DNA of 36,642 bases from NCBI GenBank assembly GCA_018882585.1, contig VFFB01000013.1:1-36642 (forward strand), in the 5' to 3' direction. This document shows, piece after piece, positions 989-36,076 of this stretch. Under the pieces are notes generated by a model. It saw only the letters and a list, made by a program, of their open reading frames with translations, searched no databases and had not been told where the DNA came from. The position numbers and the translations under genes were made by a program. Within the stretch, counting starts at the first letter, position 1. Each line of letters opens with the position of its first letter. Origin of the DNA: Candidatus Kapaibacterium sp. Its GTDB lineage: Bacteria > Bacteroidota > Ignavibacteria > Kapaibacteriales > Kapaibacteriaceae.

Positions 989-1927
989 TCGCAATCGGTC
1001 GGCGATGCCGGCCAGCACTTCCATGATCATCGTGGCCGCAAGTTTGGCCGTCCGATTGTCGACATCATAGGCTGGGTTGAGCTCTACCACGTCCATGGCT
1101 GTGAGCGTGGCGTTACGTCCAATCTGTCGCAGACAGTATCCAAGTTCGTGCGGAGCAAATCCATCGGCTGCCGGGGCGCTTACGCCGGGGGCATAGGCCG
1201 AGGCAAAGGCATCCATGTCAAGCGACACGTACGACGTCCCGGTCGATGTCAGCACGGCCATGGCCCGATCCCACGCGGCCGCGATGCCGCGGCGGCGCAC
1301 ATCGTCGAGCATCAGAACGGTCGCACCGTGGCCCGACAGGAAGTCAAGGTGTGCTTTCGCAACGGCATGATGCTGAAGCCCGAACTCTACGAAGGCAGCC
1401 GGTGCCAGCGCTGATGTTGTTGCCGTGAGCATCTGATAGAAGGGCGAACCTGAGTGCGCTCGAGAGCCGTCGATCAACGGTCGCACATCGGCGTGAGCGT
1501 CGATGTTCGCCACACCGTAAAGCTCGCCGCGCCTGTCGAGTGCTCGAATCGTCGGCCAGGCCGTGTCGTGTCCACCACCAAGCATGATGGGCAGTCGACC
1601 ATTCGCCAGGTGACGATAGACAACGTCTTCCTGCTCGTCGTGGATCTGCTCGAGGGTCTTTCCTTCGGTGTGCACGTCGCCGGCATCAACGATGGCAAGG
1701 CGTCCGTCGCGCACCACATCTATCACGGCCGACGTTGCCAGCTTGAAGAGTTGTTCGCGGATCGCCGCAGGAGCGGCGGCCGCGCCAGGACGTCCGCCGT
1801 TGCGTTCGACGCCGATATGTTGTGGCACACCGACGATGACAACGGTCAGCGCGTCTGCCGGCACCGCTTGCAGCGGCACCAGCAGATCGCCAACGCGAGG
1901 GTCATGTTCGGGATCCCGAGAGTACAT
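980..1927 (-). CDS. hutG: Formimidoylglutamase / arginase-family ureohydrolase
   Basis: 315 residues of the binuclear-manganese ureohydrolase fold. Metal ligands are visible in GGGHD (His120), NIDAHAD (Asp143, His145, Asp147) and SLDMDAF (Asp237, Asp239). The wording NIDAHADVRP followed by HSGSPF is closer to HutG, which hydrolyses formimidoylglutamate to glutamate and formamide in histidine breakdown, than to agmatinase or arginase. A longer reading from 1978 is possible, but the ATG at 1927 shares one base with the stop of the upstream T9SS gene (TGATG), implying translational re-initiation, and gives the usual family length. No hutH, hutU or hutI gene is in the window, so the pathway role is inferred from the sequence alone. 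Confidence 0.75.
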   Translation of the reverse strand: MYSRDPEHDPRVGDLLVPLQAVPADALTVVIVGVPQHIGVERNGGRPGAAAAPAAIREQLFKLATSAVIDVVRDGRLAIVDAGDVHTEGKTLEQIHDEQEDVVYRHLANGRLPIMLGGGHDTAWPTIRALDRRGELYGVANIDAHADVRPLIDGSRAHSGSPFYQMLTATTSALAPAAFVEFGLQHHAVAKAHLDFLSGHGATVLMLDDVRRRGIAAAWDRAMAVLTSTGTSYVSLDMDAFASAYAPGVSAPAADGFAPHELGYCLRQIGRNATLTAMDVVELNPAYDVDNRTAKLAATMIMEVLAGIADRLRSR

Positions 1928-5706: not shown

Positions 5707-5727
5707 GCGTTATCTCCAAGTGAAGGG

Positions 5728-5748
5728 CTGAAAATACGCATGCAAGCC
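5728..5748 (-). promoter_or_regulatory. Promoter-like element before the PNGase F-like gene
   Basis: On the minus strand this reads GCTTGCATGCGTATTTTCAG. Its first 13 bases (GCTTGCATGCGTA) are identical to bases just upstream of the TonB receptor gene at 13757, where they run directly into TAGTTTTG. The T-rich part here (TATTTTCA) is a poorer match to TAnnTTTG. The position, about 25-40 bases before the ATG at 5706, fits a promoter. Confidence 0.45.
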
Positions 5749-5751
5749 GAT

Positions 5752-6516
5752 TCAGTGTCGCGCTACACCACCGTCAACATTGATGGTCTGCCCCGTAATG
5801 ATGCCCGATGCCGGCAGGGCCAGAAAGGCGACCACGTTGGCAATATCTTCGGGCTCGTCGGCACGGTGAACTGCCTGCGCCGGCAGGATACTCTCAAGGA
5901 TGGACTGTGAAACGGCATCACCTGCCGGACGTTGCGTGGCCGTAAGGCCAACAGAGATGGTGTTGATCGTGATGCCGTGCTTGCCGACTTCCGAGGCCAG
6001 CGATCGCGTGAGGCCGATCACGCCCATCTTTGCCGTTACATAATGCGTCAGGTAAGGCGTTCCGAGCCATACCGTGTCCGACGAGAACGAGATGATGCGT
6101 CCGAATCCGGCCTTCTTCATGTGCGGCAGCACGGCACGGATCGTAAAGTAGAGCGAGTCAAGTGTGAGCCGCATCGTGCACGTCCACTCGTCATACGTTA
6201 GCAGGTCGAACGGCAGTTCGCTGTAATGACCAACGTTATGTACCAGAATGTCGATTCGACCAAAGCGGCTCATTGTGGCTGCGACCATTGCTGCAACGGA
6301 ATCCGGATTGGTCACATCGACCTGCACGACCAGGACCTCGGCCCCGATGGCGCGCACGGCATCGGCCGTTGCCGACGCATCGGCAACATCGGCAATGACG
6401 ATGCTGGCACCCTCTTCGGCAAGACGCTCGCAGAACGCCCTGCCGTTGCCGATGGCTGCACCAGTGACGATGGCGACGCGGCCGTGAAGGCCGCGTTCAA
6501 ACTCATGAAGCTGCAT
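5752..6516 (-). CDS. Short-chain dehydrogenase/reductase (FabG-like)
   Basis: 254 residues of the classical SDR fold. The NAD(P)-binding TGAAIGNG is at residues 18-25, HNVG replaces the usual NNAG near residue 94, and the catalytic Ser146, Tyr159 and Lys163 are present (SSDTVW, YVTAK). GITINTI and TGQTINVDGG near the C-terminus are FabG-like. The fourth member of the classical tetrad, the Asn in the WxxxxxxN helix, appears to be Thr118. The gene begins 3 bases after the stop of the serine palmitoyltransferase-like gene, so they are almost certainly co-transcribed. That neighbour makes 3-ketosphinganine reduction a reasonable idea, but an ordinary 3-oxoacyl-ACP or sugar reductase is equally compatible with the sequence. 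Confidence 0.85.
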   Translation of the reverse strand: MQLHEFERGLHGRVAIVTGAAIGNGRAFCERLAEEGASIVIADVADASATADAVRAIGAEVLVVQVDVTNPDSVAAMVAATMSRFGRIDILVHNVGHYSELPFDLLTYDEWTCTMRLTLDSLYFTIRAVLPHMKKAGFGRIISFSSDTVWLGTPYLTHYVTAKMGVIGLTRSLASEVGKHGITINTISVGLTATQRPAGDAVSQSILESILPAQAVHRADEPEDIANVVAFLALPASGIITGQTINVDGGVARH

Positions 6517-6519
6517 GCA

Positions 6520-7716
6520 TCAACCTTCGATGATACCCAGCTCGCGTCCCACCTGCTGAAACACATTCAGAACGCCATCAAGGTGTTCGGCTTCGTGCGT
6601 GGACATGTAGCTGGTACGAAGCATGGACAACGTTGGCGGTACACCCGGCGGGATGAAGGCGTTGACAAACACGCCGGCATCGTACAGCTTGCGCCAGAAC
6701 ACAAGTGTCTTCTCGACGTCGCCCAGCACGACCGGCACGATGCCTGTGCGGGAGTCGATCACATGGAATCCCAGGGCGCTCAGACCGTCGCGCATCCTGT
6801 CGGCGTTGGCTATGAGTTTGTCGATGCGCCACGGCTCCTTCTCGACGATGTCGAGGGCTGTCAGCGCCGCCGCCACCGAGGCCGGCGTAGGCGAGGCACT
6901 GAAGATCAGGGCCGGCGAATGGTGCTTCAGATAGTTGATCACGCGCTCTGGTCCTGCCACGAAGCCACCGAGCGAAGCGAAGGTCTTCGAAAACGTGCCC
7001 ATCGTCAGGTCGGCCTTGTGTGTCAGCCCGAAGTGGCTTGCCGTGCCCCTTCCACCAACACCGACGACTCCCGTACCGTGGGCATCGTCGACAAGGATGC
7101 GGGCGCCATACTTCTCGGCGACGGTGACCATGTCGGGGAGATTGACGAGCTCGCCGGACACGCTGAAGACGCCGTCGGTAACGATGAATTTGCCTGCGTC
7201 TTCGGGTAGTTTGGACATGACCCTGTCCAAGTCTTCCATGTCGTTATGCTTGTACCGTACGAACTCGGCAAATCCGCCCTTTGCCAGCATGCATCCGTTG
7301 ATGATGCAGGCGTGGTTCTCTTTGTCGGAGATGACGTAGTCGCCCTTGCCTACAAGACCGCTGATGACGCCAAGAGCCGTCTGATAGCCTGTCGAGAACA
7401 GGAGCACGTCCTCGTAGCCAAGATAGGCGGCCAAGCGTTTCTCGAGTTCGACGTGCAAGTTGATCGTACCTGTCAGATAGCGCGATCCCGAGCACCCCGT
7501 ACCATAACGCGAGATGGCATCAACGGCAGCCTGCTTCACACGAGGATCTGCCGTCAGACCAAGATAGTTGTTCGACCCTGCCATGATGACCTTTCGGCCC
7601 TCGAGCATGACAACGGGTCCTTCGTTTTCTTCAACGGGCCGGAAGTACGGATACAGGCCCGCGGCCTTGATCTCGTCTGCACGGGTGAATTCGTAGCACT
7701 TCTGAAACAGATCCAT
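6520..7716 (-). CDS. spt: Serine palmitoyltransferase-like alpha-oxoamine synthase (PLP enzyme)
   Basis: 398 residues. Alpha-oxoamine synthases condense an amino acid with an acyl-CoA with loss of CO2. Visible features are GSNNYLGLT (49-55), [10 protein letters not shown] (72-81), the PLP-stacking His135 in KENHAC, VDDAHG (Asp210, His213) and the Schiff-base lysine in TFSKT (Lys244). The N-terminal [10 protein letters not shown] and [15 protein letters not shown], and the length of 398, match Bacteroidota serine palmitoyltransferases more closely than glycine acetyltransferase (Kbl) or BioF, which are the alternatives. A TTG at 7740 would extend it by eight residues, but AAGGAA lies 8 bases before ATG 7716. 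It lies 20 bases after yajQ and 3 bases before the SDR, in one operon. Confidence 0.72.
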
Positions 7717-7736
7717 GGAGTGGTTCCTTATGATGT

Positions 7737-8234
7737 TCAACGCATGTTTTCGAACTGAACGGGAAAGCCGAGCGATGCGCTTCGCAAGGCACCCATTACG
7801 GCTTGGAGGTCGTCCTTGCTCTTTCCGGTGACCCGGACTTTTTCGTCCTGGATCTGAGCCGTGACCTTGAACTTGCCATCTTTGATAAGTGTGGTGATCT
7901 TCTTGGCATCTTCCTTGGAGAGTCCGCTACGCAGATTGATGATCTGACGCACCCGGCGACCGCTCATCAGCTCGACCTTCTGTTCGTCGAGCGCTTCGAC
8001 CGAGATGCCGCGCTTGATCATCTTTTGGACGATAATGTCGCGAATGGCAGTCACGAAGTGCTCACCATCGGCACGGATGGTGATCGTGCGCTTGGGACGA
8101 TCAAACTCGATCTCCTGGTTCGATCCCCGGAGGTCATAGCGATGCTCAGCTTCCTTGACAGCTTGATTTACGGCATTATCCGCCTCTTGCAGATCAACTT
8201 CGCTGACAATGTCAAATGAGTATGTCGATGCCAT
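7737..8234 (-). CDS. yajQ: YajQ family nucleotide-binding protein (DUF520)
   Basis: 165 residues, the full family length. It opens [16 protein letters not shown], has [14 protein letters not shown] and [13 protein letters not shown], and ends FPVQFENMR, all hallmark YajQ stretches. Members fold as two ferredoxin-like domains, bind nucleotides, and in Xanthomonas bind cyclic di-GMP; the role here is not known. AAGGAG lies 5 bases before the ATG. It is the first gene of a minus-strand operon continuing into the serine palmitoyltransferase-like gene and the SDR, an association that is positional only. Confidence 0.95.
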
Positions 8235-8321
8235 AGTGCTCCTTGCTGCGAAGATAACGCCCAGCTCGTCATTCTTTGGTTGGGCGCACGATGTACGGTC
8301 TGATGTACCGATTTAATTGCG

Positions 8322-8329
8322 TAGTTCGC
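8322..8329 (+). promoter_or_regulatory. Promoter-like element TAGTTCGC before the SulP gene
   Basis: TAGTTCGC, preceded by TGCG, resembles the GCGTAGTTTTGC element of the TonB receptor gene. It lies about 34 bases before the ATG at 8363 and argues against the earlier in-frame starts, which would put it inside the coding region. Confidence 0.4.
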
Positions 8330-8362
8330 ATTCTAATCGGTCTTTCATCTCGTCAGCGCTCA

Positions 8363-9964
8363 ATGTCTCTTCGTTTTAGTCTTCCTGACACAAGATCATT
8401 GCCTCGGGATTTCTCCGCGGCACTGGTCGTCTTTCTCGTTGCCCTTCCGCTTTGTCTTGGTATCGCTCTTGCCTCGGGAGCACCACTCTTTGCGGGCATC
8501 GTAGCAGGTGTTATTGGAGGCCTTGGTCTTGCCTGGTTTTCAGGGTCTGAGCTTAGCGTCAGCGGTCCTGCCGCCGGACTTGCCGTGGTTGTCCTGTCTT
8601 CTATCAACCAGCTTGGCTCGTTCGAGGTGTTTCTGTCAGCAGTGGTTCTTGCCGGAGTCCTGCAGATGGGCATCAGTCTTCTCCGTGCGGGTACACTTGG
8701 CAACTACATTCCAACGAGCGTTATCAAGGGAATGCTTGCTGCCATCGGCATCACGATCATCCTGAAACAGATACCGCATGCTGTCGGCTTTGACCGAGGA
8801 TTTACAGACGAGGAGCAGGCCTTTGCCGGAAGGCAGTGGATGGACATCTTCATCGACCCTGTCAATGCATTCTCGGTGCTGCACCCCGGTGCCATTACCG
8901 TAAGTGTGGTTTCGTTGATCATCATTCTTGCATGGGATAGTGAGCCCGTGAAACGCATGCGCTGGACCGGCTACACCCCGGCAGCGCTCATTGCCGTTAT
9001 CATCGCTGCTCTGCTGAATGAGGTATTCCAACTGGCGATGCCGGCCTTCAGGTTGTCGGCAGAACGTGGCCACCTTGTGGAACTACCCGTAGCCGCAGAT
9101 ATCGCCAGTTTCTTCGGCTATGTTACAACGCCCGATTTTTCGGCCATGTGGTCGCCCGCCGTTTGGTCTGTTGCGCTCACGATCGCCGCGATCGCTTCGA
9201 TCGAGACGTTGTTGTCAATCGAAGCTGTCGACAAAATGGATCCGATGAAACGCATTTCGGATGCAAACAGAGAACTCTTCGCACAAGGTATCGGCAACGC
9301 CCTGAGCGGTTTGTTTGGCGGGCTTCCAGTGACATCCGTTATCGTGCGGAGCTCTGCTAATGTCTTTGCCGGTGGGCGTACAAGGTGGTCGGCTATCCTG
9401 CATAGTATGTTGTTACTACTGGCCGTTCTGTTCATTCCAACGCTGCTCAATCGCATACCATTGGCTGTACTTGCATCAGTGCTTCTTGCCGTAGGTTACA
9501 AGTTGTCCTCTGTGAAACTCATTCGGGCAATGTTGCGAGAAGGCATTTCGCAGTTCGTTCCGTTTATCGTTACCACGGTCATGGTGGTTGCAACCGACAT
9601 CCTGCTGGGTGTTGCCATCGGCATCCTGGCAAGCATATTCTTCGTTATGCGAGCCAATGATCATGCCGCATTCACGGTAGTCAACGATGGCAAGAACCAT
9701 CTGATCAGATTCAACAAGGATGTGTCATTCATCAACAAGTCCCGTCTGAAGGACATTCTGCGATCGATACCTGATGATGCCTTCCTGATAGTTGATGGTG
9801 CCAAGGCCCTGTGTATCGATCATGATGTGTACGAAATGATCGCCGAATTCGAGCAGGCAGCCTCGTTCAGAAACATCCACATCGAATACCACAATTACCA
9901 CGGCAAAGAGCGTCCATGGCGCAAACGGAGATCACATGGAATCGTATCAACGACTGCTACTTAA
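8363..9964 (+). CDS. SulP family anion transporter with STAS domain (probable bicarbonate/sulfate carrier)
   Basis: 533 residues. About the first 430 contain 10-14 hydrophobic helices, with SulP signatures [18 protein letters not shown] near the N-terminus, SVSGPAAGL, and [18 protein letters not shown] in the second half. The last 90 or so residues form a cytoplasmic STAS domain ([32 protein letters not shown]). The 3' end overlaps the beta-carbonic anhydrase gene by 29 bases, a pairing common for SulP bicarbonate carriers, so bicarbonate is the most likely substrate; sulfate remains possible. ATG 8363 was chosen because SulP homology begins just after it and a promoter-like element lies upstream. 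There is no strong ribosome-binding site. Confidence 0.88.
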
Positions 9965-10577
9965 CAACAAGGCTTGGGTAAATGACAAGCTGAATCTTCG
10001 CGAAGATTTCTTCTCGAGGATGACACTCAGTCAGGAGCCAGAGTTCTTGTGGATTGGCTGCAGTGATTCGCGTGTTCCGGCTGAGGAAGTGACCGGTGTC
10101 GAACCCGGTGAGATCTTCGTCCACCGGAACATTGCCAATCTGGTGATCCATACCGACTTCAACATACTGTCGGTACTGCAGTACGCCGTTGAAGTGCTCA
10201 AGGTCAAACACATCATCGTGTGTGGACATTATGGCTGCGGAGGCGTCCGTACCGCCATGTCTCGAAGGCACCTCGGCTTGATCAACAAGTGGCTGCGGCA
10301 CATCAAAGACGTGTATCGATTGCATGCAGGCGAACTTGAAAGCATTCACGACGAAAACGTCCGCTTCGATCGCCTGGTCGAATTGAATGTCATGGAGCAG
10401 GTACATCACCTCGCCGAGATCTCATTCGTGCAGCAAGCTTGGCGTAAGGGAGATAGACCGACAATCCATGGCTGGATCTACGACATCCACACAGGCTACC
10501 TGAAAGACCTCGTGAAGATCACGCCGGGTGAATTGCCCCACCACATCTACACCTACGAATTTCCCGACGACGAGTAA
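9936..10577 (+). CDS. Beta-class carbonic anhydrase
   Basis: 213 residues. Beta-carbonic anhydrases are zinc enzymes interconverting CO2 and bicarbonate. The zinc and catalytic residues are all present: CSDSR gives Cys42, Asp44 and Arg46, and CGHYGCGG gives His98 and Cys101. The length and the ending HHIYTYEF are those of Can-type enzymes. GGAG lies 6 bases before the ATG, inside the last codons of the SulP gene. The overlap implies co-translation and a joint role in bicarbonate uptake or retention. Confidence 0.95.
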
Positions 10578-10597
10578 CCTCAATCACTGCCATCCAA

Positions 10598-11263
10598 ATG
10601 CTGTCAGCAAGATTCTTCCGATTCTTCGCCGAGCTTGAGCGCAACAACACCCGCGAGTGGTTTCATGACCATGCGACTGAGTTCAAGGAGCACGTTCAGG
10701 CGCCCTTCCTGGCACTGATAGAGCAACTGCTGTCACACATGCAGTCCCGCGATTCGCTCATCGCAATGTCTGCTAAGGACGCCTTGTTCCGGATCCATCG
10801 TGACGTGCGATTCGCGAAGAATAAGGCACCATACAAGACGGCAATGGGGGCAGCGATCGGGCGTGGCGGGCGCAAGGACATGGCAGAACCAGGGTTGTAC
10901 ATCGAGGCACATGCTCGCGGCGGACATATTGCCGGCGGCATCTATATGCCTTCGCGAGAGCAACTCGCCGATATCCGAAGCTGGATCGCCGATCATCACG
11001 ACGAACTTGATCGCGCCGTCAACGATCCCGCCTTCGTGCAAGCCTTTGGTACGCTCCGCGGCGAGCGCAGCAAGGTCATGCCCGCAGAGTTCCGCGACGT
11101 TGTGGCGTCGGCCCCGCTGATCGTTCATAAACAGCTGTATTACTGGGGCGACATCACGAAGCAGGATCTTTTGGCCGCAGACGCTGCAGAGCGCATCATG
11201 GCCAAGCACGATGCCGCTGCTCACGTCAACGACGTGCTACGCCGCGCTCTGCACGGCCAATAG
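10598..11263 (+). CDS. DUF2461 / TIGR02453 family protein
   Basis: 221 residues. FFRFFAELERNNTREWFHDH at the start, RIHRDVRFAKNKAPYKT near residue 68, GGIYMPSREQL, and the ending region HKQLYYWGDIT are the conserved blocks of this family. Its function is unknown. It starts 20 bases after the carbonic anhydrase stop and is probably the third gene of that operon, although the ribosome-binding site is weak. It is convergent with the TonB receptor gene, with only 40 bases between their stops. Confidence 0.9.
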   Translation: MLSARFFRFFAELERNNTREWFHDHATEFKEHVQAPFLALIEQLLSHMQSRDSLIAMSAKDALFRIHRDVRFAKNKAPYKTAMGAAIGRGGRKDMAEPGLYIEAHARGGHIAGGIYMPSREQLADIRSWIADHHDELDRAVNDPAFVQAFGTLRGERSKVMPAEFRDVVASAPLIVHKQLYYWGDITKQDLLAADAAERIMAKHDAAAHVNDVLRRALHGQ

Positions 11264-24255: not shown

Positions 24256-26124
24256 ATGGGTGTCCGACAGAGACCTACCACGTTGCTGCTTACTGCGTTT
24301 GCCCTGCTATGCGTGAGGGCGTCTGCTCAGAGCATCTCGATCGACCGGATCGACCCGCCACACTGGTGGGTGGGCTGGGATGAAGCACAGTCGCAGCTGC
24401 TCGATGTGGAGCTCTTGGTGGAAGGCGCCGGGCTTGACGGTGCTTCGATCTCGATACGGGCCGAGGGCGTGAGCGTGGTGTCTGATAAACCCGCCAGCGA
24501 TCCTCGCTATCGGTACCTTCGTCTTATGATTGCAGACACCGCACGGGCACAGAGCGTCGTGATCACGGCAACGAAAGGCAAACAAAGCACCTCCTACGGA
24601 TTCGAGCTGCATGAACGCCAGCACGGTCAGCAGCGTACAATGGGCCTTACGCCCGACGACGTGGTGTATCGCATCATGCCGGATCGCTTCGCGAATGGCG
24701 ATGTATCGAACGACGTAATCGCGACGATGCTTGAAACGTCGGTCGATCGGTCGGAACCACACGGACGACACGGCGGCGACCTATCCGGCATCCTGCAGAA
24801 CATCGATCATATCGACAGTCTTGGAGCGACAGCCGTACTGCTATCGCCCGTGCTCGAAAGTAACATGCCCGTGTCCAGCTATCACGGCAATGCTATCACG
24901 GACCACTACCGTGTTGATCCTCGTCTTGGTTCTGTGAAGGAGTACCGGGCTCTTGCCCGCGCTTTGCACGATCGTAACAAGCGACTGGTCATGGATGTGG
25001 TGTTCAACCACATGGGTAGTCGCCATCGGCTATTCATGCGTCCGCCCGACTCCGCATGGTTCAACCTGTGGCCGGCATACACGCAGACAAATGGACGAGT
25101 AAGTACAATTGGCGACCCCAATGCCATGTGGGGAGATCGCGAACGCATGCTCCGTGGCTGGTTCGATGCATCTTTGCCCGATGTGAATCAGGATCACGGT
25201 CATGCCGCCATCTATCTGTTCCAGCACATCATCTGGTGGATCGAAGAGGTTGGCATTGATGCGCTGCATATCGGCGCGTATCCGTACTGCGATGTCTTCG
25301 TGATGCGTGACCTTTGCCGGGCCCTGCGCACCATGTATCCCAATCTTGGTATCGTGGGCGAAGTGAAGACCGACGATGCCGTGACACAGGCAACGTTCGC
25401 GGACCGCCGCGGTGATGGGACGGAGCGAACGTGGCTTCCGTCGCTCACGGATTATCAGCTGTACTCCGCATGGCATGAAGCGTTGACGGAGCCCTCGTCA
25501 TTAAGCTCGGGTGTCGGACGCTTGTACACCACGCTAAGCGCCGACAGGCTGTATGATAAACCCGGCAACCTTCTCATTTTTCTGGATAATCCGGATGTTG
25601 GGCGGTTCTTCGGGATGGTGAAAGGAGACATGCGGATGTATACGCAAGGCATTACGATGCTGCTGACGATGCGAGGCATTCCATGTCTGTATTACGGTAC
25701 CGAGTTTCTGTTCAGCCAGACCGAAGACCATGGAGCGATCAGTCAGGATGTGAGTGGCGGCTGGGAGCGTGACAAGCATAACATGTTTACGGTCAAGGGC
25801 CGTCCCGGCAGTGTTGCCAAGGCAATGTCGCTCATTCAACGATTGACATCATTTCGCGCCACGACGTCGGCGCTCACGTCGGGCGCATTCAAGCATCTTG
25901 CACCCGAGCAGGGCGTCTATGCCTATGCCCGGTACGATCAGACGTCGACCGTACTTGTGGTGATCAACGTCGACAAGGCATCACGAACGTTCGACTGGCG
26001 CCGCTTCGGCGACATCATTCCCGCCTCGGCCTCCGCTGTTGACGTCTTCACCGGTAAACCTTTCGATCTTTCGAAGGCAGCAACCATCGAACCGAACGGA
26101 ACGCTGCTGATCCACCTGCGTTGA
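24256..26124 (+). CDS. Secreted GH13 alpha-amylase-family protein with inactivated catalytic site
   Basis: 622 residues from ATG 24256, where a signal peptide (TTLLLTAFALLCVRASAQ) begins; ATGs at 24178 and 24235 are also in frame. An N-terminal beta domain (about 27-125) precedes a neopullulanase/SusA-like GH13 barrel: DVVYRIMPDRFANGD, LLSPVLESNM, region I DVVFNHMGSRH, region III IVGEVK (Glu369). Region II, normally GFRID with Arg and the Asp nucleophile, reads ALHIG: His338 replaces Arg and Gly340 replaces Asp. Region IV reads FLDNPD instead of FLDNHD (Pro446; Asp447 kept). Hydrolysis by the family mechanism is therefore unlikely; glucan binding or a scaffold role is possible. It is divergent from acsA across about 200 bases with no clear promoter element, and convergent with a ROK kinase. 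Confidence 0.88.
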   Translation: MGVRQRPTTLLLTAFALLCVRASAQSISIDRIDPPHWWVGWDEAQSQLLDVELLVEGAGLDGASISIRAEGVSVVSDKPASDPRYRYLRLMIADTARAQSVVITATKGKQSTSYGFELHERQHGQQRTMGLTPDDVVYRIMPDRFANGDVSNDVIATMLETSVDRSEPHGRHGGDLSGILQNIDHIDSLGATAVLLSPVLESNMPVSSYHGNAITDHYRVDPRLGSVKEYRALARALHDRNKRLVMDVVFNHMGSRHRLFMRPPDSAWFNLWPAYTQTNGRVSTIGDPNAMWGDRERMLRGWFDASLPDVNQDHGHAAIYLFQHIIWWIEEVGIDALHIGAYPYCDVFVMRDLCRALRTMYPNLGIVGEVKTDDAVTQATFADRRGDGTERTWLPSLTDYQLYSAWHEALTEPSSLSSGVGRLYTTLSADRLYDKPGNLLIFLDNPDVGRFFGMVKGDMRMYTQGITMLLTMRGIPCLYYGTEFLFSQTEDHGAISQDVSGGWERDKHNMFTVKGRPGSVAKAMSLIQRLTSFRATTSALTSGAFKHLAPEQGVYAYARYDQTSTVLVVINVDKASRTFDWRRFGDIIPASASAVDVFTGKPFDLSKAATIEPNGTLLIHLR

Positions 26125-26145: not shown

Positions 26146-26168
26146 TGAAGGCCGCGTTCAGGCCTTCA
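26146..26168. terminator. Hairpin between convergent genes, possible bidirectional terminator
   Basis: TGAAGGCC (26146-26153), a 7-base loop, and GGCCTTCA (26161-26168) form an 8-bp perfect stem between the stops of the GH13 gene and the ROK gene, overlapping the last codons of the latter. There is no clear T-tract on either strand, so termination strength is doubtful. Confidence 0.45.
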
Positions 26169-27033
26169 TTGTAAGCATGCCCGCGCCAACAAGGCCTGCA
26201 TCATTCATGAAATGTGCCGGAAGTATTTGGCCGCTGGCGGCGATCGTAGGAATGGCGCGCTTGGCAAGTGTGCGTCGGGCCGTGTCGAGAATGATGTTCG
26301 ACCGCGAGATGCCGCCACCGATGATGGCCGTGCGAAGGCCGAGGACGGCCATCATCCCGCAAAGGCCGATTCCGAGCAGTGTGCCTGTCTCGACCATGAC
26401 GCGCAGCGCCCGCGCTTCGCCACGCGCAGCGCGCGCGTCGATGTCTGCAACGTCCACATCATCGCCCCCTCCGTACCTATTCAGGATGCCGACGCGGCCA
26501 ATGAGGTTTTCAAGCGTGTAGGATGGCTCGGCATCCAACATGGACGATCGCATGTAGATGTGCCCCACCTCGCCGGCATCACCATGAGGCCCGGTATGGA
26601 GTTGGTTGTTGAAGATGATGCCACCGCCGACACCTGTTCCAAGCGTCACGTAGAGAAAGTCTCGCAGATCCTTGCCCGCGCCGGCACGGGCCTCGGCGAT
26701 GGCACCGGCATTGGCATCGTTTTCGACAACGACATCAACGCCTGTGGCCTCGGCCACAAGTTGCTGTAACGGCACGCGCACCCATCCCGGAAGATTCGGC
26801 GGCGACTGTACGTGTTTCGTCTGTGGGTCGACCACTCCGGGCACACCGATACCGATGGGTTTCCCGGGTGCTTTCTGCGACAGTTCCCTTGCGATGCGGA
26901 TGATGCGACCGACCATCGCATCACGGCCCTCTTCGGCATGCGTCGGTGTCTGATACTGCTCAAGAATGGTACCGTCGGCCTCGACGATGCCATACTTGAT
27001 GAATGTTCCGCCAACGTCAATGCCAAGCAGCAT
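26158..27033 (-). CDS. ROK family sugar kinase (probable glucokinase)
   Basis: 291 residues. It opens with the ATP phosphate-binding LLGIDVGGTFIKYGIV and has GIGVPGVVD, ENDANAGAIAEARAGAG (the catalytic Asp within ENDAN), VTLGTGVGGGII, and the sugar-binding GEVGHIYM. ROK kinases phosphorylate glucose or related hexoses. The zinc-binding CxCGxxGCxE that normally follows GxxGH is absent; SSMLDAEPSYTLENLIG stands there instead. A GTG at 27042 would add three residues; the ATG at 27033, with GGTG 7 bases upstream, is preferred. It may act on sugar released in connection with the neighbouring GH13 protein, but that protein looks inactive. Confidence 0.9.
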   Translation of the reverse strand: MLLGIDVGGTFIKYGIVEADGTILEQYQTPTHAEEGRDAMVGRIIRIARELSQKAPGKPIGIGVPGVVDPQTKHVQSPPNLPGWVRVPLQQLVAEATGVDVVVENDANAGAIAEARAGAGKDLRDFLYVTLGTGVGGGIIFNNQLHTGPHGDAGEVGHIYMRSSMLDAEPSYTLENLIGRVGILNRYGGGDDVDVADIDARAARGEARALRVMVETGTLLGIGLCGMMAVLGLRTAIIGGGISRSNIILDTARRTLAKRAIPTIAASGQILPAHFMNDAGLVGAGMLTMKA

Positions 27034-27101
27034 GCATTTCACCGATTGGTGTCAGTTGCGTTGTGACAAGGAGTCTGCTAATGGAAGCGGCCGGACATCA
27101 A

Positions 27102-27119: not shown

Positions 27120-28406
27120 TTATCGAATGACGGGCAGGACGAAACTGACGCCACCGATCCTTACCACGTATGTCCCGGCAGGCACCTCTGACAGATCCAA
27201 CCGCATACCCGGTTCATTCTGCAATGACTGTACCGGAATGCCACTCAAGTTAACCACCTCGACCGTACCCATGTAGCCATCTACGACCACGTGGTCAGAT
27301 GCAGGTAGGGGGCGAAGCGACACCCCAGAGGGGTCGTCGCCTGCGGAAACGGGCTCTTCGCGAAGGATCCTGATGATGGTATCAGCCACCGCTGCGGCGT
27401 TGGCCTGAGCGGTATTCGTCAGCACACTGATGGACGCACGCAGCGAGGGCACCCTGACCATCACCGAGGCGTAACCGCGGATCTCGCCGGAGTGGCCGAT
27501 GATGGAAGCACCACCCAGGACCTTGCGACTGATGCCCAGACCGTAATCCTGTGGACCGGTGAATGCCAGCATCTCCTGCATCGCATCCTGTCCAAGCAGT
27601 TTGCCGCTGAACAATCCGTTGTAGAGCACCGTCATATCCGACGGTGTCGAAAACACGGCTCCTGCTGCCCAGGCACCGCTGAAGGCTGCGTTGATGGACA
27701 TTCCCGATGCATCAGTCGGTCCAAGCCACCGATGGGCCACGTCGCCACGAAGCGAGTCTTCGACGCCCAGAAACGTCTGCTCCAACCCCAGGGGCTCGTA
27801 GATGTAGTTGCGGAACAGCGATCCCAGAGTCTTGCCCGTGACCTTGGTTGCGATGAGGCCCGCCAGAAAGTAATTCGTGTTGCAGTACTGCCAGCCGTTA
27901 CCGGGCGCGAACATCGGCTCGGGGATCATCGGCAGGATGTCGGCTTCGGTGAAGATCCTCGACGTATTGTTGCCCACGCTTTGTCGGTACGTCGTTGTTG
28001 CCGAGTAGTCGCCCAGGCCGCTCGTATGGTTCAGCAGCTGACGTATCGTGATTGATCCGTCAATGTTCGTTCGGTCGGCAAACCATGTGGCGATGGTCGA
28101 GTCAAGGTCCAAGATTCCCTCTTCCTGCAGCCGCAGCAGCACCAGTGACGTAAGCGTCTTTGTGTTGCTGCCGATGCCAAACAACATCGAAGGATCGATC
28201 GGTGTACCAGGATGAGAAATGCCGGCAACGCCTTGCCAATGATCGTTATCCCATCGGACCGACACCGACACACCCTTGATAGTGTCTCGCTCGCAGACAT
28301 GGCTGACAGCCTGCTGCAACCGCTCGCGCATGGCATCTGTTGTGGCTGCCGTTGCAAGCGTTGTGGCAACGAACCAGAGCGTGATGATGTAGCGAATCGA
28401 CTTCAT
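27120..28406 (-). CDS. Secreted class C beta-lactamase-like serine hydrolase with T9SS-like tail
   Basis: 428 residues. Signal peptide about 1-20. The serine hydrolase motifs are SNTK (Ser80, Lys83), YCN (Tyr174, Asn176) and the third motif GHSGEIRG. LLNHTSGLGDY and ATWFADRTNIDG are typical of the DD-peptidase/esterase-like class C group rather than true beta-lactamases. The last 60 or so residues (GYMGTVEVVNLSGIPVQSL, SEVPAGTYVVRIGG) look like a T9SS sorting domain. It overlaps the preceding hydrolase by 4 bases (ATGA), so the two are co-translated. The substrate (peptide, ester or peptidoglycan) is not readable. Confidence 0.88.
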   Translation of the reverse strand: MKSIRYIITLWFVATTLATAATTDAMRERLQQAVSHVCERDTIKGVSVSVRWDNDHWQGVAGISHPGTPIDPSMLFGIGSNTKTLTSLVLLRLQEEGILDLDSTIATWFADRTNIDGSITIRQLLNHTSGLGDYSATTTYRQSVGNNTSRIFTEADILPMIPEPMFAPGNGWQYCNTNYFLAGLIATKVTGKTLGSLFRNYIYEPLGLEQTFLGVEDSLRGDVAHRWLGPTDASGMSINAAFSGAWAAGAVFSTPSDMTVLYNGLFSGKLLGQDAMQEMLAFTGPQDYGLGISRKVLGGASIIGHSGEIRGYASVMVRVPSLRASISVLTNTAQANAAAVADTIIRILREEPVSAGDDPSGVSLRPLPASDHVVVDGYMGTVEVVNLSGIPVQSLQNEPGMRLDLSEVPAGTYVVRIGGVSFVLPVIR

Positions 28407-29692
28407 CGCAGATTACTCCAACGTCGCACGACAGTTTGTCCATCAAGCTGCACCTGCAGGAGGTAGACTCCGCGCGCCAGCGCGGGAAGTTCTACGGCCG
28501 AGGCATTGCCCCCTTCAAACACGACCTGTTCGCCGGTGACGGAGGTGATAACGCACGTGCCGATGGATCCGCTGTTGGCGTGTACTGTGTGACCGTGGAT
28601 TGCAAGGCCACCTTCGTCAGCATCAATGTGCGACGTTGGCATGGCCGCACGCAGCAGTCTCCACAGATCATTGGCCTGCGTCGTTGCTACGTCTGCGCCC
28701 TGCAGCAGAGAATCGGGGTTGTCGCCTGTGCGAACCATGACAATGTTCATTGACGGGCTGACTGAGATCATCTGGTTGTTCTTCCCCAAGGCATTGAATG
28801 CATCCGCGGGTGCGTCGGGCAGAGCCGGACCCTTGAAATCGATCTGCAGTCCGGGGAGCTTGTAGGTAGGCTGACCGTTCAGCCACCAAAGGTATCCATA
28901 GGACGGGTTGAGGGGCTGTGACGGCCGTGTGAGTGCGTTGACATAGGACGTATCCGTCAGGATCGGTGTGCCGTCCCAGATGAATCGACGCTGGGCCAGC
29001 AGGCCGAAGCGGGCCATGGACCGGGGGGTGCTCCACATCACGTTGTTGTATCCCGAGGCGATAAATCTTCCCGTCATTCCTGTTTTATCGAGCAACGACC
29101 GATTGAGCACGGCCTGAAATGTCTGGCCTGATGCCGCCTCGATCACGCCGTCCAGCAGCGTGTACGGGGCGTTGTGGTAGGCCCAGCGCGTGCCTGGTTC
29201 TGCCTTGTATTGCAGACAGGTTTTATCGGTACAGTACGGATCGGCCACGCGGTCGTCAAGGCCCGATGTCATGGTCAGTTGATTCCAGATCGTGATGCGC
29301 GCCTCCTGCTCGGGCGTCAGCGACGTCCATCCACTGCCGAGATACTTCGACGTCGCATCATTGACGGACAGCTTGCCCTCCTGCTGTAGCACACCCACGA
29401 GCGTTGCCGTGACCGTCTTGCCCGCACTTGCCCAGTACCACGGACTTGTGGCCGTCCGCCCATCGGCATACCACTCAATGGCAATACGACCTCCGACCAG
29501 GACGATAAGTGAGTTCGACAGGGTACGTTCGGCATATGCAATCAGCGAATCAACACGAGCGGCATTCCACCCAAGATCCTGCAAAGAGACGCGCTGCCAG
29601 GTTGTATCGCCGATCGGAGGATAGTAGTCATCCTGCGCCGTAACCGACGACAAGACGCTGAGCATGAACGCCGAGATAAGAAGGTAGCGCAT
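28403..29692 (-). CDS. Secreted class C beta-lactamase-like serine hydrolase with T9SS sorting domain
   Basis: 429 residues. Signal peptide about 1-20 (LLISAFMLSVLSSVTAQ), which sets the start at ATG 29692; a TTG at 29707 would add five residues. The catalytic motif is SAGK (Ser89, Lys92), the second motif is YHN (Tyr172, Asn174), and LTMTSGLDDR follows the family. It resembles the 6-aminohexanoate-dimer hydrolase/esterase branch. The final 75 residues (GTCVITSVTGEQVVFEGG, LPALARGVYLLQVQLDG) form a T9SS sorting domain. It is the first gene of a two-gene operon with the downstream hydrolase. The two differ in motif wording (SAGK and SNTK), so this is an old duplication or a convergent pairing. 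Confidence 0.9.
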   Translation of the reverse strand: MRYLLISAFMLSVLSSVTAQDDYYPPIGDTTWQRVSLQDLGWNAARVDSLIAYAERTLSNSLIVLVGGRIAIEWYADGRTATSPWYWASAGKTVTATLVGVLQQEGKLSVNDATSKYLGSGWTSLTPEQEARITIWNQLTMTSGLDDRVADPYCTDKTCLQYKAEPGTRWAYHNAPYTLLDGVIEAASGQTFQAVLNRSLLDKTGMTGRFIASGYNNVMWSTPRSMARFGLLAQRRFIWDGTPILTDTSYVNALTRPSQPLNPSYGYLWWLNGQPTYKLPGLQIDFKGPALPDAPADAFNALGKNNQMISVSPSMNIVMVRTGDNPDSLLQGADVATTQANDLWRLLRAAMPTSHIDADEGGLAIHGHTVHANSGSIGTCVITSVTGEQVVFEGGNASAVELPALARGVYLLQVQLDGQTVVRRWSNLR

Positions 29693-29835
29693 AAGGCTGA
29701 TAACCAAAAGAAAGGTGCAAGGAAGCCGCGTTCGACGGACTCACGACGTCTGGCCGAAAAACGCTGCCCTTGACGCTGATGTATTGGGTATGGTTTAGTA
29801 CAGATGCCAAGGTTGCGCACGAAAATAGCCGCCCA

Positions 29836-31824
29836 ATGCCCGTAGATTCGCAAGGCAACACAATCGAGGCACTATTGATCATTTCGCGTACAGTATTGTT
29901 TCTGCTTACCGCATTCATCGGCGCTGCAGCCCAGGCATCTGCGCAGCAGAGCCTTTCAGTGCGTGGGTTGGTCGATCAATGCTACGCCGTACGGTTCGTT
30001 GATCAAGCTTGGCCATATGATTCATTGGCCACGGACAGACCGCTTCCCGACTCGGTTGGAAAGGCCACACTGTTTGCCATGCAGGGTGCCTGGATTCCTG
30101 AGCTGGGCGACACTTCCAGCATTGATATCGATCCTGACATCGGACGCCTGATCGATGTTGATTTCACAAGCCTGTCGGATAGTCTCTATCTGATCCGGTC
30201 AGACAGCGATGTTGACGTTGACACCGCTCTCATCTACCAGCTGGTCGTTCCGATCGCAGCAGATACCATCGTGGTTGACTCCGTCACGACTGCCCGACCA
30301 TGGGACGGTGCTTCGGGTGGGGTTCTATCACTGTGGGCAAGAGATCTTCTCATCGTCAATGATACGATACGTGTCAGGGGGCTTGGTTTTCGCGGAGGTG
30401 CGCGATCCGCCAACGGCGGAGAATGCAACATGACCGAAGCGTGCGGTCCACTAACGTCGGTATTCTCGGCCGGCAAAGGCGAGTCCGTGTACTTGGCCTC
30501 GGCAGACTGCGCAGCCGGATATCTGCCGCTTGTTACGGGTGGCGGCGGTGGTAATTCGCACAACAGTGGCGGCGGCGGCGGCGGTAACGGTGGTGGCGGC
30601 GGCCGTGGTGGCGATCAGTTTGTATGCAGTGGTGAACCCGGAGCACACGGATTGCCCGGTCGTCCGATTCTTGCCGGTTCAACCGGTCGGGTCTTTTTCG
30701 GCGGCGGCGGTGGTGGTGGACATCAAAACAACAATGCGGCATCGGGTGGTGGCCCTGGCGGAGGTGTGATACTACTCCGAGCACCCATCATGTTGGCGGA
30801 CAGTGCTGTGCTTGATGCTGCAGGAAGCGATGTTACTGCCCGTGCCGGAAATGATGGTGGGGGCGGCGGCGGTGCCGGTGGCACCGTAGTCATGGATGTG
30901 TGCCGTTTGATATCGCCCGTCGATGTCATGGTACGCGGAGGCCGAGGAGGCAACTGCGACGACTCTCACGGTCCCGGTGGTGGTGGTGGCGGCGGCACCG
31001 TTCTGCTACATCCGGGAATCGCCCAATCGGCAAGCGCGCTGTGCCGCGTTGACGCAGAAGGCGGCAACGTAGGACTTGTACACAGCGGTAGCACCTCGAG
31101 AGGTGCTATGAAAGGAACGGACGGAGTAACCCTTGTCAGCTGTACCGTTGTACCTCTTCATTCCGTGATCATCGATTCGGCGGCAGCTATCGGCGACACA
31201 CTTCGCATTCGCCTTTCAGCGCGAGACACTCTATCGATGTGTGATATACTCGTATCCCACGACATATCGATCAGCGGCGGCGCAGTGTCGCCCATCGTTG
31301 ACAGCTCGACAGCCGATGTTCTCGTGGCAGACCGTCGCATTCGGTGGAACGAGCGCCAGCTTACAGTTCAACTGCTTTCGCGGCAGTCCACGGAGATTAA
31401 GCTGCTGGGTGTCGTGAGTCGAGATACAACGTCGTTGATCGGCGTTCGCTCATCGCTCGCCGGAGTGGATGAACGTTGTCCAGGGGACGAATCCAGCCAG
31501 CGCATCAATGTCAGTGCCTGCGCGCGCGCGCTGCGCCCAATCACACGTGGTCTTCCATTCGAGGTGAGCATCACCGATGTTGCTACGACATTGGTACGGT
31601 ATCGCATTCAGGCCTATACCACAGCAGAGGTTCGCATTCGCGCCATCAATATGCATGGTCAGGTTGTCGCTGAAACCACCGTCGAAAACCTGCCAATGCT
31701 TGGCCCCGGGGAGTTTATCGCAGAAGGAACGCTCGACATGTCCTTGGCTGCTCAGGGGATGTACTTCCTCGTCGCCGCGTCGGGGCTAGGATCCCGCGCA
31801 GTGCCATTCATGTGGACCCCCTGA
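29836..31824 (+). CDS. Glycine-rich secreted protein with T9SS-like sorting domain
   Basis: 662 residues, no enzymatic family recognised. From ATG 29836 there is a long signal peptide ending near AQASAQ; an upstream in-frame start at 29770 has no support. Residues about 233-391 are dominated by glycine runs such as GGGGGNSHNSGGGGGGNG and GPGGGGGGGTVLL interspersed with short beta motifs (GGVILLRAP, GGTVVMDV), as in secreted glycine-rich beta-helix-like surface proteins. The final 75 residues (VRIRAINMHGQVVAE, AAQGMYFLVAAS) fit a T9SS sorting domain. It contains several cysteines. It is divergent from the serine hydrolase pair; the 143-base gap between them holds only weak T-rich promoter candidates. 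Confidence 0.82.
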   Translation: MPVDSQGNTIEALLIISRTVLFLLTAFIGAAAQASAQQSLSVRGLVDQCYAVRFVDQAWPYDSLATDRPLPDSVGKATLFAMQGAWIPELGDTSSIDIDPDIGRLIDVDFTSLSDSLYLIRSDSDVDVDTALIYQLVVPIAADTIVVDSVTTARPWDGASGGVLSLWARDLLIVNDTIRVRGLGFRGGARSANGGECNMTEACGPLTSVFSAGKGESVYLASADCAAGYLPLVTGGGGGNSHNSGGGGGGNGGGGGRGGDQFVCSGEPGAHGLPGRPILAGSTGRVFFGGGGGGGHQNNNAASGGGPGGGVILLRAPIMLADSAVLDAAGSDVTARAGNDGGGGGGAGGTVVMDVCRLISPVDVMVRGGRGGNCDDSHGPGGGGGGGTVLLHPGIAQSASALCRVDAEGGNVGLVHSGSTSRGAMKGTDGVTLVSCTVVPLHSVIIDSAAAIGDTLRIRLSARDTLSMCDILVSHDISISGGAVSPIVDSSTADVLVADRRIRWNERQLTVQLLSRQSTEIKLLGVVSRDTTSLIGVRSSLAGVDERCPGDESSQRINVSACARALRPITRGLPFEVSITDVATTLVRYRIQAYTTAEVRIRAINMHGQVVAETTVENLPMLGPGEFIAEGTLDMSLAAQGMYFLVAASGLGSRAVPFMWTP

Positions 31825-32059: not shown

Positions 32060-32572
32060 ATGAGCACGTTTTTCCGTCTTTCGGTTGTCGCCGTAGCAGT
32101 AGTTATGGCCAGCACGATGAGTGCAGTAGCAGGCAACGGGTTTACGACCACAGGCCCGTCAGTTTCCATTCAGGTGAGCCCGATTGCAAAGTTTGGCGAC
32201 ACTCCGAAGCACAACCAGAAGTGGTTCGAAGAAGACTACGAGAATCCATACAAGAACCCCTGCCGCGACACTGGTAGTGACTGCATAAACACTGGCGACC
32301 AGTACTACATTGAGTCAGTTTCTGCCTCAGCTCAACCCGTTCAGGGCGGATACATCATCACGGCTTCGATGATTCCACTGAACACCGAACTTGCCTCGGG
32401 CGTTAAGGTCGGTACATTCCCGCCGACTGCCGGCACTGTTCTCCTTAGGGGCCAGTACGAAGTTCGGATCAGCAGTTCGCCGGTTAGTTCTTTGCGCAAT
32501 GTTGTTGTAGATTTCGGCGGATGTGTTGTCGACCAGAATTTGAACGTTACCAAGTTTATCCCGATCCAATGA
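32060..32572 (+). CDS. Small secreted hypothetical protein, co-translated with a thioredoxin-fold protein
   Basis: 170 residues, family not recognised. The signal peptide is about MSTFFRLSVVAVAVVMASTMSAVAG. The mature protein begins polar and charged (KHNQKWFEEDYENPYKNP), has a close cysteine pair CRDTGSDC and a later FGGC, then becomes beta-rich (YIITASMIPL, GTVLLRGQYEVRIS). ATG 32060 was preferred to 32048 because GGGG lies 7 bases before it and the signal peptide is then of normal form. Its stop overlaps the start of the next gene (ATGA), so the product may be a partner or substrate of the thioredoxin-fold protein. Confidence 0.72.
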   Translation: MSTFFRLSVVAVAVVMASTMSAVAGNGFTTTGPSVSIQVSPIAKFGDTPKHNQKWFEEDYENPYKNPCRDTGSDCINTGDQYYIESVSASAQPVQGGYIITASMIPLNTELASGVKVGTFPPTAGTVLLRGQYEVRISSSPVSSLRNVVVDFGGCVVDQNLNVTKFIPIQ

Positions 32573-34119
32573 CGCAGTACATGTACAGGATCTTCGCAAG
32601 AAGTCTTGTCGCAATTTTCGCCTTCCTTGTAACGGTGTCGCTCACAGCCCAGTCCTCGAGATTGGATGTGGGCGATACTGTTATTATTAAACCCAAGTAT
32701 CACTCTAGCGGTGTAATCCTTGGATTTACCGGAACCGTTTACTGCGCGTCGTGTCCCACGGCCCTTCTTGGCATTGATGCCTTGGCTCAGAACCTCGACG
32801 TTCCCATGGAGGTCTATTTCGCCGAGGGGATGGAATCATCAACGTCTGTCAGCCTGACACAGCAGTTCAAGGTTGCGAAAGTGTTTGATGACGAGACGCA
32901 AGCTGTTACCAAGATGTATCGAATTGATCCTGTTCCTGCAGTTATTGTTGTTTCGCCCTCTGGAGTTGTTCGATATGTCGGTTATCCGGGCACAAGCAAG
33001 TACAGCATTGCCGAAGCGAAGCGGGCAATCGACTCGATTCGCAATGATGGTGTGTACTATGAGTTTCGTGGTCCTGTGCAGCAACGTGCTCGAATAGTAT
33101 CAACCGTCAGCATGCCTACGGAGGTAATGGGCAAAGACTCTCGAATGGCGATGACTGCATACGACGATGTGGCGAATGAGATTTTTGTTTGGGACGTCGC
33201 GACATCAACGACCTCTTTCGTCCTTGACTCCGGGGGACGAATATTGCATCGCTTTGACATGTCTCGGGCAGTCCCTTCAAAGGGCAGTGGCGCGCCAGAC
33301 TTTATGCAATGGGACAACAAGCGTAAACGCATTCTACTCCGGGGGTTTGACAATGCCTCGCGAGCTATCGCCGTCTACTGGTACAACCTGCACACACAAA
33401 CATCTGATACGCTCAAGCTAAGCGATGGTATCCCGGATCGAAGACGTGCTCTTGCAACGCGAGTGCATCCCGAAACAAACGCCTATATCGTCGGGCTGGA
33501 TCTTCGTGATTTGACGGAAGACGATCCGCATCCAAGAGCATCCGTGTTTGTAAGGTTTCCTGATCGCGACACATTTATGGGGAAATGGGGCGATCATTTT
33601 CAACGCGACTCGTTCCGACTTGAATCATTGTTGACCGTTATCGGACTTGGGGCAACGGGATGGTATACCTCACAGCAGTTTACGGATACCATCGTTCATT
33701 ACTCCTGTTCATCAGGAACTTCAACGGCCTATCACGTAAAGCTCCCTCCACCATACTTTGTTCATCATGGTCCTGGGATGAACCGGTTGTTGCAGGATCC
33801 TGATCTGTTACGTTCCCGAAAGACTCTCTTCTCTCGACTATATCAGATTTTAGAGAGCCCGGGCACAAACACCTTTTATGCTTTTTTCTACACGCCCGCC
33901 GGCGAGTTCGCCGGAGTCAATCAGCCGCCGTATTCCGACCGCAGCCTAATCGCAGTGCACTACGACATGGAAAAGCGACAGATACTGTCGGCTTTTGAAC
34001 TGCCACAGGCAGCGTATCCCAAGGGTATCCGGAACGGACGCATCATGTGCGCGCAAATCGATATGTCAAAGCTCAGGATCGCGTGGTTTGCTCCTCCCGC
34101 TACGTCTGCACCGAACTAG
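32569..34119 (+). CDS. Exported thioredoxin-fold protein with CASC motif and long beta-rich C-terminal region
   Basis: 516 residues. The signal peptide is about 1-28 (LVAIFAFLVTVSLTAQ). Residues about 33-165 look like a thioredoxin/TlpA-type fold: VGDTVIIK, GFTGTVYCASCPTALL with the redox pair Cys59 and Cys62, YRIDPVPAVIVVSPSGVVRYVG with the cis-proline loop and the final strand. The remaining 350 residues are beta-rich, possibly a propeller (IFVWDVATSTTSFVLDSGG, ILLRGFDNASR, LIAVHYDMEKRQIL). It begins at the ATG that overlaps the stop of the preceding gene. The gene at 34520 is a clear paralogue across its full length. Such fusions could sense or reduce disulfides on surface proteins; function is unknown. 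Confidence 0.78.
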   Translation: MTQYMYRIFARSLVAIFAFLVTVSLTAQSSRLDVGDTVIIKPKYHSSGVILGFTGTVYCASCPTALLGIDALAQNLDVPMEVYFAEGMESSTSVSLTQQFKVAKVFDDETQAVTKMYRIDPVPAVIVVSPSGVVRYVGYPGTSKYSIAEAKRAIDSIRNDGVYYEFRGPVQQRARIVSTVSMPTEVMGKDSRMAMTAYDDVANEIFVWDVATSTTSFVLDSGGRILHRFDMSRAVPSKGSGAPDFMQWDNKRKRILLRGFDNASRAIAVYWYNLHTQTSDTLKLSDGIPDRRRALATRVHPETNAYIVGLDLRDLTEDDPHPRASVFVRFPDRDTFMGKWGDHFQRDSFRLESLLTVIGLGATGWYTSQQFTDTIVHYSCSSGTSTAYHVKLPPPYFVHHGPGMNRLLQDPDLLRSRKTLFSRLYQILESPGTNTFYAFFYTPAGEFAGVNQPPYSDRSLIAVHYDMEKRQILSAFELPQAAYPKGIRNGRIMCAQIDMSKLRIAWFAPPATSAPN

Positions 34120-34519: not shown

Positions 34520-36076
34520 TTGGTTCACCGCACGTCACCTCATACTGTGCAACCACACCACACGTCTCGTCTCGTCGTCTACACCGCCCTTCTCCTGATG
34601 CTCTGCATCGTTGAGGCAAGAGCGCAGCATGACCAGCCACGCATCAAGGTTGGTGATACCGTACTTATCAAATCGCGGCACCGTACCCACGGTGTGGTGA
34701 TCGCATTTCCCGGAACATCGACTTGTGATGCGTATCTAAACGCTATTGCATCGATTGAACGCACGATTGCGAACCTCCCCATTGACATGGTTGTTTATGC
34801 TACGTTGAATTTCGACCATGTTCACACGGGGCTAGTCAACGACTATCATTTCAAGTCTCCTGTCTATGACGATGGTTTTTCGATATCGAGCAGTGTCTAC
34901 CATGTCGAGGCCTATCCAACCGTTCTCGTTGTTGCGCCTTCAGGTGTTGTTCGCTACGTGTCTAGTCTTGTAGGAGGCTCCGGATACGATTCGCGGGACC
35001 TGTTGAAGGCTGTCAACCTTTCGATCGCAGAAGGATCGCACGAAGTGTTTCGGGGCGAGGAGCGCCAGCGTGGTCGTATGATAGCCGCCCTTGGTTTGCA
35101 CGCTGAAGTATCGAGCCCATCATTCACTAACGCTACTGTTCTGTACGATGCTGCCGCCAAAGCGGTATTCATCTGGAACGTTCCTGTTTCATCGACATCG
35201 TTCATGATCGACAGTGCCGGCAACGTGACGGGTCGATACGACATGGAGCCTCTCGTTCAAATCGCAAGTGCACAGAGCATACAGTTGATTCATTGGGACC
35301 GTGATCAGGAACGCATTCTCGTTTCGATTCCTGACGCAGTAGACAAGAGCAGACACCTTCGATGGTTCAACATGCGGTCTGGACAAGTCACTCGCGAAGA
35401 AGCGCTCGACGCGATACCGCCACGAAGGAAGGCCCAGCACATCGTCTACCATGCACCGTCTGCCACGTTCATTCAAATGCTTAGGCCTAATGCCGCAACG
35501 ATACATGATGACAATCCTCTGGCCGCTGCATACTGCACGAACGGAACAACGGCTTCTTACCTCTCAGATACATTGCAGGAGCAGTTCACCTCCTTGGACA
35601 TAAGCGCTTTAAGGAATGTCTCATTTGCGTCATGCCGTCAGGGTTGGATTTCCTACGGCATGCACGACAGTTTGTTCTTGTTGCATGACCTGCACAGCGC
35701 TGGTACTTCGCAACACCCTGTTGCACTGCCGATGGCCTACAGCAACGGCAATTCTGCATCTTCCATCGCAACCGATGAGCGCGGGGGTGCATGTGAAGGG
35801 ATCATGAAGGTTCTGCCGGACTCCGAAGACGATCGCGTTTTCATTCAATACCGCATTCCGACAGCTGCCCTGGACAACACGGCCAATACCGGATGTTCAT
35901 CAATCATGATCCACTACGACACGAAATCTCGAAGAGTCCATTCAGCATTCGAGATACCTCGTGAAGCGGAGCCATTCGCAGCTGCCAACGGGGCCGTCCT
36001 ATGTAAGCGCTTCGACTTGGTGCCTGCGCGGGTAGTCTGGTACACGGCGCCAGAGACAGAACTATACCGCAACTAA
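34520..36076 (+). CDS. Exported thioredoxin-fold paralogue that has lost the CXXC motif
   Basis: 518 residues. A signal peptide ends near EARAQ (about residue 36). The fold matches the gene at 32569 block by block: VGDTVLIK, GVVIAFPGTSTCDAYLNAI, YHVEAYPTVLVVAPSGVVRYV, VFIWNVPVSSTSFMIDSAG, IMIHYDTKSRRVHSAFEIP. Where the first copy has CASC, this one has CDAY (Cys69), so the resolving cysteine is gone and disulfide exchange is unlikely. The start is uncertain: no in-frame ATG precedes the hydrophobic core, so TTG 34520 or GTG 34547 must be used. An ATG at 34515 with AGGT upstream is in another frame and stops at 34596-34598, where the stop overlaps an in-frame ATG (TGATG). Confidence 0.75.
   Translation: MVHRTSPHTVQPHHTSRLVVYTALLLMLCIVEARAQHDQPRIKVGDTVLIKSRHRTHGVVIAFPGTSTCDAYLNAIASIERTIANLPIDMVVYATLNFDHVHTGLVNDYHFKSPVYDDGFSISSSVYHVEAYPTVLVVAPSGVVRYVSSLVGGSGYDSRDLLKAVNLSIAEGSHEVFRGEERQRGRMIAALGLHAEVSSPSFTNATVLYDAAAKAVFIWNVPVSSTSFMIDSAGNVTGRYDMEPLVQIASAQSIQLIHWDRDQERILVSIPDAVDKSRHLRWFNMRSGQVTREEALDAIPPRRKAQHIVYHAPSATFIQMLRPNAATIHDDNPLAAAYCTNGTTASYLSDTLQEQFTSLDISALRNVSFASCRQGWISYGMHDSLFLLHDLHSAGTSQHPVALPMAYSNGNSASSIATDERGGACEGIMKVLPDSEDDRVFIQYRIPTAALDNTANTGCSSIMIHYDTKSRRVHSAFEIPREAEPFAAANGAVLCKRFDLVPARVVWYTAPETELYRN

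Follow-up and report, generated by a model that had tools for sequence, protein, structure and literature searches.

We found that a secreted SusA-like protein of 622 aa, encoded at 24256-26124 (+) of the window (the whole 36,642-nucleotide stretch of DNA that was analysed), had lost the catalytic centre of its GH13 barrel. With moderate confidence, we regard it as a catalytically dead periplasmic pseudoenzyme which was left after loss of the starch pathway and whose fold is still constrained. Translation of the 622 codons met neither an internal stop nor a frameshift, in agreement with the preliminary description of an open frame of normal length. A signal peptide without a lipobox Cys, MGVRQRPTTLLLTAFALLCVRASAQ, was read from the sequence without a predictor at about residues 1-25 (24256-24330, +). 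It was followed by a Cyc-maltodext_N domain (PF09087, 53.4 bits; residues 31-122, 24346-24621, +), the GH13 barrel (Alpha-amylase, PF00128, 119.7 bits; residues 140-489, 24673-25722, +), and a Cyc-maltodext_C domain (PF10438, 68.8 bits; residues 546-619, 25891-26112, +), each of which exceeded its Pfam cut-off. The top solved relatives were SusA (9fyz, E 1.7e-122) and the Flavobacterium-type cyclomaltodextrinase (1h3g, 3edf), both aligning nearly end to end, so that the alignment with SusA proposed earlier as a check gave a near full-length match. A structure model based on 15 distant sequences was of low quality (mean pLDDT 54.6, pTM 0.61) and supports none of the claims made here; promoter and terminator scans gave no result.

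The architecture of an N domain, a GH13 barrel, and a C domain is that of subfamily GH13_46 (PMC9781549). SusA of Bacteroides thetaiotaomicron and the cyclomaltodextrinase of Flavobacterium sp. No. 92 resembled the protein in domain order, signal peptide, and homology from end to end. Signatures of the subfamily (PMC9781549) were recovered as LPDVN at residues 307-311, the shared WW pair at 326-327, and the aromatic end of region II, YPY, at 342-344; LPDVN, in region V, was close to the MPDLN signature and departed from it by M to L and L to V. On these features we assign the 622-aa protein to GH13_46 by descent, in the SusA/cyclomaltodextrinase group. Unlike GH13_46 enzymes, however, it lacked the nucleophile, the Arg of region II, the His of region IV, and the Tyr of the YHGY motif, carried Leu in place of the region V Met, and was encoded in a genome from which the starch partner genes were missing. 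A selection criterion in PMC9781549 is an intact Asp-Glu-Asp triad, and with Gly340, Glu369, and Asp447 at these positions the protein falls outside GH13_46 as defined by enzymes.

The catalytic positions were compared with 99 homologues drawn from the same family, order, and phylum; these were the better matches in a sample of the phylum, and further degenerate members may exist elsewhere. Region II read GIDALHIGAYPY, in which ALHIGAYPY stood against ALRVDTYTY or ALRIDTYPY in intact family members. The Arg, the catalytic nucleophile Asp, and the Thr of this region, each present in 99/99 homologues, were replaced by His338 (CAT, R338H, 25267-25269, +), Gly340 (GGC, D340G, 25273-25275, +), and Ala341 (T341A, 25276-25278, +). 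Region IV read FLDNPD against FLDNHD or FVDNHD in intact family members; Pro446 (CCG) occupied the position of an invariant His, followed by the transition-state stabiliser Asp447, which was kept (H446P and Asp447, 25591-25596, +; H and D in 99/99). Region I (DVVFNH) was intact, and region III (VGEVKT) retained the acid/base residue Glu369 (25360-25362, +; E in 99/99); Asp247, Asn251, His252, and His210 were also kept. The preliminary description was accurate in placing His, Gly, and Pro at these three positions and in reporting that region I and Glu369 remained. It had overlooked the retained Asp447 and five further changes, namely W195L in conserved region VI (24838-24840, +; W in 99/99), Y212N in the YHGY motif (24889-24891, +; Y in 99/99), T341A, R496S (25741-25743, +; R in 99/99), and W371K, at a position that was W in 85/99 homologues. 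Orthologues with the same changes, for which it suggested a search, did not turn up among the 99 homologues, all of which kept the Arg, Asp, and His. A clade of pseudoenzymes sharing the changes was likewise considered and dismissed, none being found in the 99 homologues; the incomplete sequences L015 and L016 kept the catalytic residues that they covered.

Residue 212 aligned with the tyrosine of the YHGY motif, which forms the platform of the -1 subsite in alpha-amylases; the position was near-invariant even against remote GH13 proteins. Arg338, His446, and Tyr212, all lost, are residues expected to line the -1 subsite. A catalytic Asp shifted to a nearby position was sought and rejected, since the residue after Gly340 was Ala and Asp346 matched an Asp found at the same site in many intact homologues. 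In SusA, changing the nucleophile alone (D331N) gave a protein called catalytically inert which still bound one acarbose (PMC11633381). Since the nucleophile, the Arg, and the His were all gone here, and the D331N protein was inert, the standard GH13 double-displacement mechanism would, from what is known of the family, be unavailable to this protein. The reading as a pseudoenzyme put forward in the preliminary description thus held at the level of sequence, with these three residues absent and the scaffold conserved.

We further compared the extent of loss with that in other members. Positions identical in 99/99 homologues numbered 44, of which the SusA-like protein kept 37 and lost 7. It made 7 lone departures from the other 99 sequences, whereas any other sequence made at most 2 and 94/100 made none; because of this difference the loss pattern, as judged from the alignment, is far beyond ordinary divergence. 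Profile scores were computed leave-one-out for the conserved regions and for the remaining positions. Outside the conserved regions the protein scored 0.84, against 1.06, 1.19, 0.65, and 0.61 for the intact family members L003, L004, L005, and L006, and within them its score was the lowest of 100 (residual z -4.3 after allowing for the scaffold score). A simple count of fixed-position losses inside versus outside the conserved regions gave marginal enrichment (p 0.056; p 0.20 with a looser set). In the maximum-likelihood tree the protein fell within the family clade (95/88) on an end branch of 1.11, and its root-to-tip length, summed from branches, was 1.36 versus 1.15, 1.32, 2.28, and 2.33 for intact relatives. 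Its divergence was not above that of its intact sisters. Divergence by codon position agreed with the tree lengths, with third positions saturated. The family search found only intact relatives, 40-48% identical. Unconstrained drift was simulated starting from the present sequence: 7/44 positions changed with the frame still open in about 3% of runs without indels, and in at most 0.2% when indels made up 5-10% of events.

The starch genes of the family were then surveyed. A PF00128 protein was present in 6/23 genomes. Five of these (G007, G010, G015, G020, and G021) had an intact SusA-like gene and a second alpha-amylase of about 950 aa, together with GH31 and a SusD-like protein over the cut-off; a T9SS sorting domain was carried by the second amylase in G010 and G021, the two that were examined. 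Another genome, G014, had SusD and GH31 and no GH13. The SusD, amylase, and GH31 genes lay close together on one contig in G010, G015, G020, and G021, and the intact SusA-like gene lay outside the starch locus in most relatives, G021 being the exception. The locus of G015 (L104, about 227-9868, +) was a compact Sus-like operon on one strand, encoding SusD, a DUF4397 protein, the alpha-amylase, GH31, and a ROK kinase; the DUF4397 protein had a weak match to a T9SS tail. SusD, T9SS, and the genes carried by the relatives point to Bacteroidota as the lineage. The window's genome, a 200-contig assembly rated 100% complete, contained no second PF00128 or GH13 protein, no second, active copy of the SusA-like gene, and no GH31 (PF01055) genome-wide. 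Its only SusD candidate was one PF14322 match of 22.2 bits, below the cut-off, so that the Sus-type set of SusD-like protein, secreted alpha-amylase, and alpha-glucosidase was not found. A scan of the genome contigs gave only remote GH13 matches, and no convincing amylase, GH31, or SusD remnants were detected elsewhere in the window. GT35 phosphorylase and GH57 remained, as in most of the family, and internal glycogen metabolism is therefore probably separate. One GH57 gene of this genome (L099, contig C50 of G000, about 10028-11248, -) contained a single in-frame TAG (...LQENGQL*LSVTPFHHP...), making this either the second alpha-glucan gene to be damaged or an error of sequencing; the frames of the other GH57 (L100) and of the GT35 phosphorylase (L101) were open.

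Tail to tail with the SusA-like gene, across a gap of 33 bases, lay a ROK-family sugar kinase (26158-27042, -; PF00480, 178 bits). It was closest to the ROK kinase in the starch locus of G015, with 72-73% identity, versus 39-54% to those of other family members, a pattern suggestive of either horizontal transfer or a common history of the locus. Beyond it in the window were two adjacent proteins of the serine beta-lactamase type (PF00144), each with an apparent signal peptide (27120-28406 and 28403-29707, -), a 684-aa glycine-rich protein with GGGGG runs and without a Pfam match (29770-31824, +), two paralogues that share 27% identity over 505 aa, also without a Pfam match (32521-34119 and 34520-36076, +), and a partial IS66 transposase (PF03050) near the contig end (36248-36634, -).

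From these observations we propose that the ancestor was a normal periplasmic SusA-like neopullulanase or cyclomaltodextrinase, acting as the partner of a Sus-type system with SusD, a T9SS alpha-amylase, and GH31. The rest of that system is missing in this lineage, and the SusA-like protein has lost its nucleophile with the associated Arg, the His, and the expected -1 platform Tyr; the protein and the ROK kinase may be the remainder of a once complete starch system. This history was reconstructed from gene presence, gene absence, and one neighbour. Horizontal acquisition, either of the kinase or of the locus, is a compatible alternative. Hydrolysis of alpha-glucans by the GH13 mechanism would no longer be possible. 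The protein is probably still folded and exported, and selection may keep its scaffold for a non-catalytic role, the simplest of which would be binding of a ligand in the remaining cleft or on the N-terminal domain. That the protein is exported, folded, and non-catalytic is the most likely state. A binding role is plausible, and the scaffold of D331N SusA can bind without turnover (PMC11633381). Ordinary tight binding of starch in the active site is doubtful, because several expected -1 contacts are lost, and the sensor role that was raised beside glucan binding is conceivable at most. With the partner pathway missing from the genome, it is not obvious why the protein would be kept. The further proposal that a periplasmic starch hydrolase of GH13_46 took on a new ligand as a non-catalytic protein for binding or scaffolding, and that this state was conserved genus-wide after pathway loss, is tentative and, in our estimate, rather unlikely.

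A serious rival, to which we give appreciable though not leading weight, is that the protein is a non-functional relict: selection was fully relaxed after loss of the starch system, and a young pseudogene is still open by chance. It is serious because the starch partner genes are missing, which the preliminary description could not have known, and this genome without other GH13 or GH31 had SusD only as a sub-threshold match. The multiple independent catalytic losses and the in-frame stop in the GH57 gene of the same assembly, another alpha-glucan gene, point the same way. Against decay, the 622 codons ran without stop or frameshift, scaffold positions were kept, and the overall rate was not raised; so many losses in an open frame were unlikely under simulated drift, though possible in the runs without indels. 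Because the scaffold was kept, divergence was like that of intact relatives, and drift was unlikely to give this outcome, a constrained pseudoenzyme is favoured over a decaying relict, although unproven.

We consider it improbable that the protein is still an enzyme of altered mechanism, the cavity at Gly340 accommodating an exogenous nucleophile or another kind of substrate. The acid/base Glu369 and the stabiliser Asp447 are retained, and mutants of retaining glycosidases with the nucleophile changed to Gly can work as glycosynthases. Activity has moreover been reported for BmaN1, which belongs to a group of bacterial GH13 proteins whose catalytic residues are substituted (PMC5347038). But BmaN1 has an Asp beside the substituted position where the neighbour here is Ala341, Arg338, His446, and Tyr212 were lost as well, and D331N SusA was inert. 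Sequencing or assembly error has a still smaller probability: the evidence came from one genome in a 200-contig assembly, but seven separate substitutions, all in frame and each at a fixed position, were spread across about 900 bases without a frameshift, and GC content by codon position resembled that of neighbouring genes.

The kind of protein is already known, both as non-enzymatic GH13 relatives and as bacterial GH13 proteins with variant triads. The heavy chains 4F2hc and rBAT are cited as non-enzymatic members of the GH13 family (PMC9781549); these are animal transporter subunits, whereas the protein described here is bacterial and secreted, with the N and C domains of GH13_46. The aberrant-triad alpha-amylases BmaN1 and its GH13_45-related group are likewise bacterial secreted GH13 proteins with substituted catalytic residues, beside which a smaller subgroup has the entire catalytic triad substituted (PMC5347038). 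In the BmaN1 group, Lys and His replace Asp residues, a conserved Asp stands beside the Lys, activity has been reported, and the changes recur (PMC5347038). In contrast, the present case concerned one lineage in a different subfamily and had no neighbouring Asp; the BmaN1-type pattern of Lys/His plus an adjacent conserved Asp was absent, the pairs here being Gly340-Ala341 and Pro446-Asp447. No description of a catalytically dead member within GH13_46 was found in the open-licence papers searched.

Automatic annotation would give this protein as alpha-amylase or neopullulanase and thereby attribute starch degradation to the organism. No other PF00128 protein was found in the genome, and this one should not be counted as an enzyme. 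If selection on the scaffold is confirmed, it would represent a bacterial GH13 pseudoenzyme for which the ancestral state is clear from intact members of the family and for which loss of the Sus-type partners is a plausible genomic trigger, and would be a good case for how a carbohydrate enzyme becomes something else.
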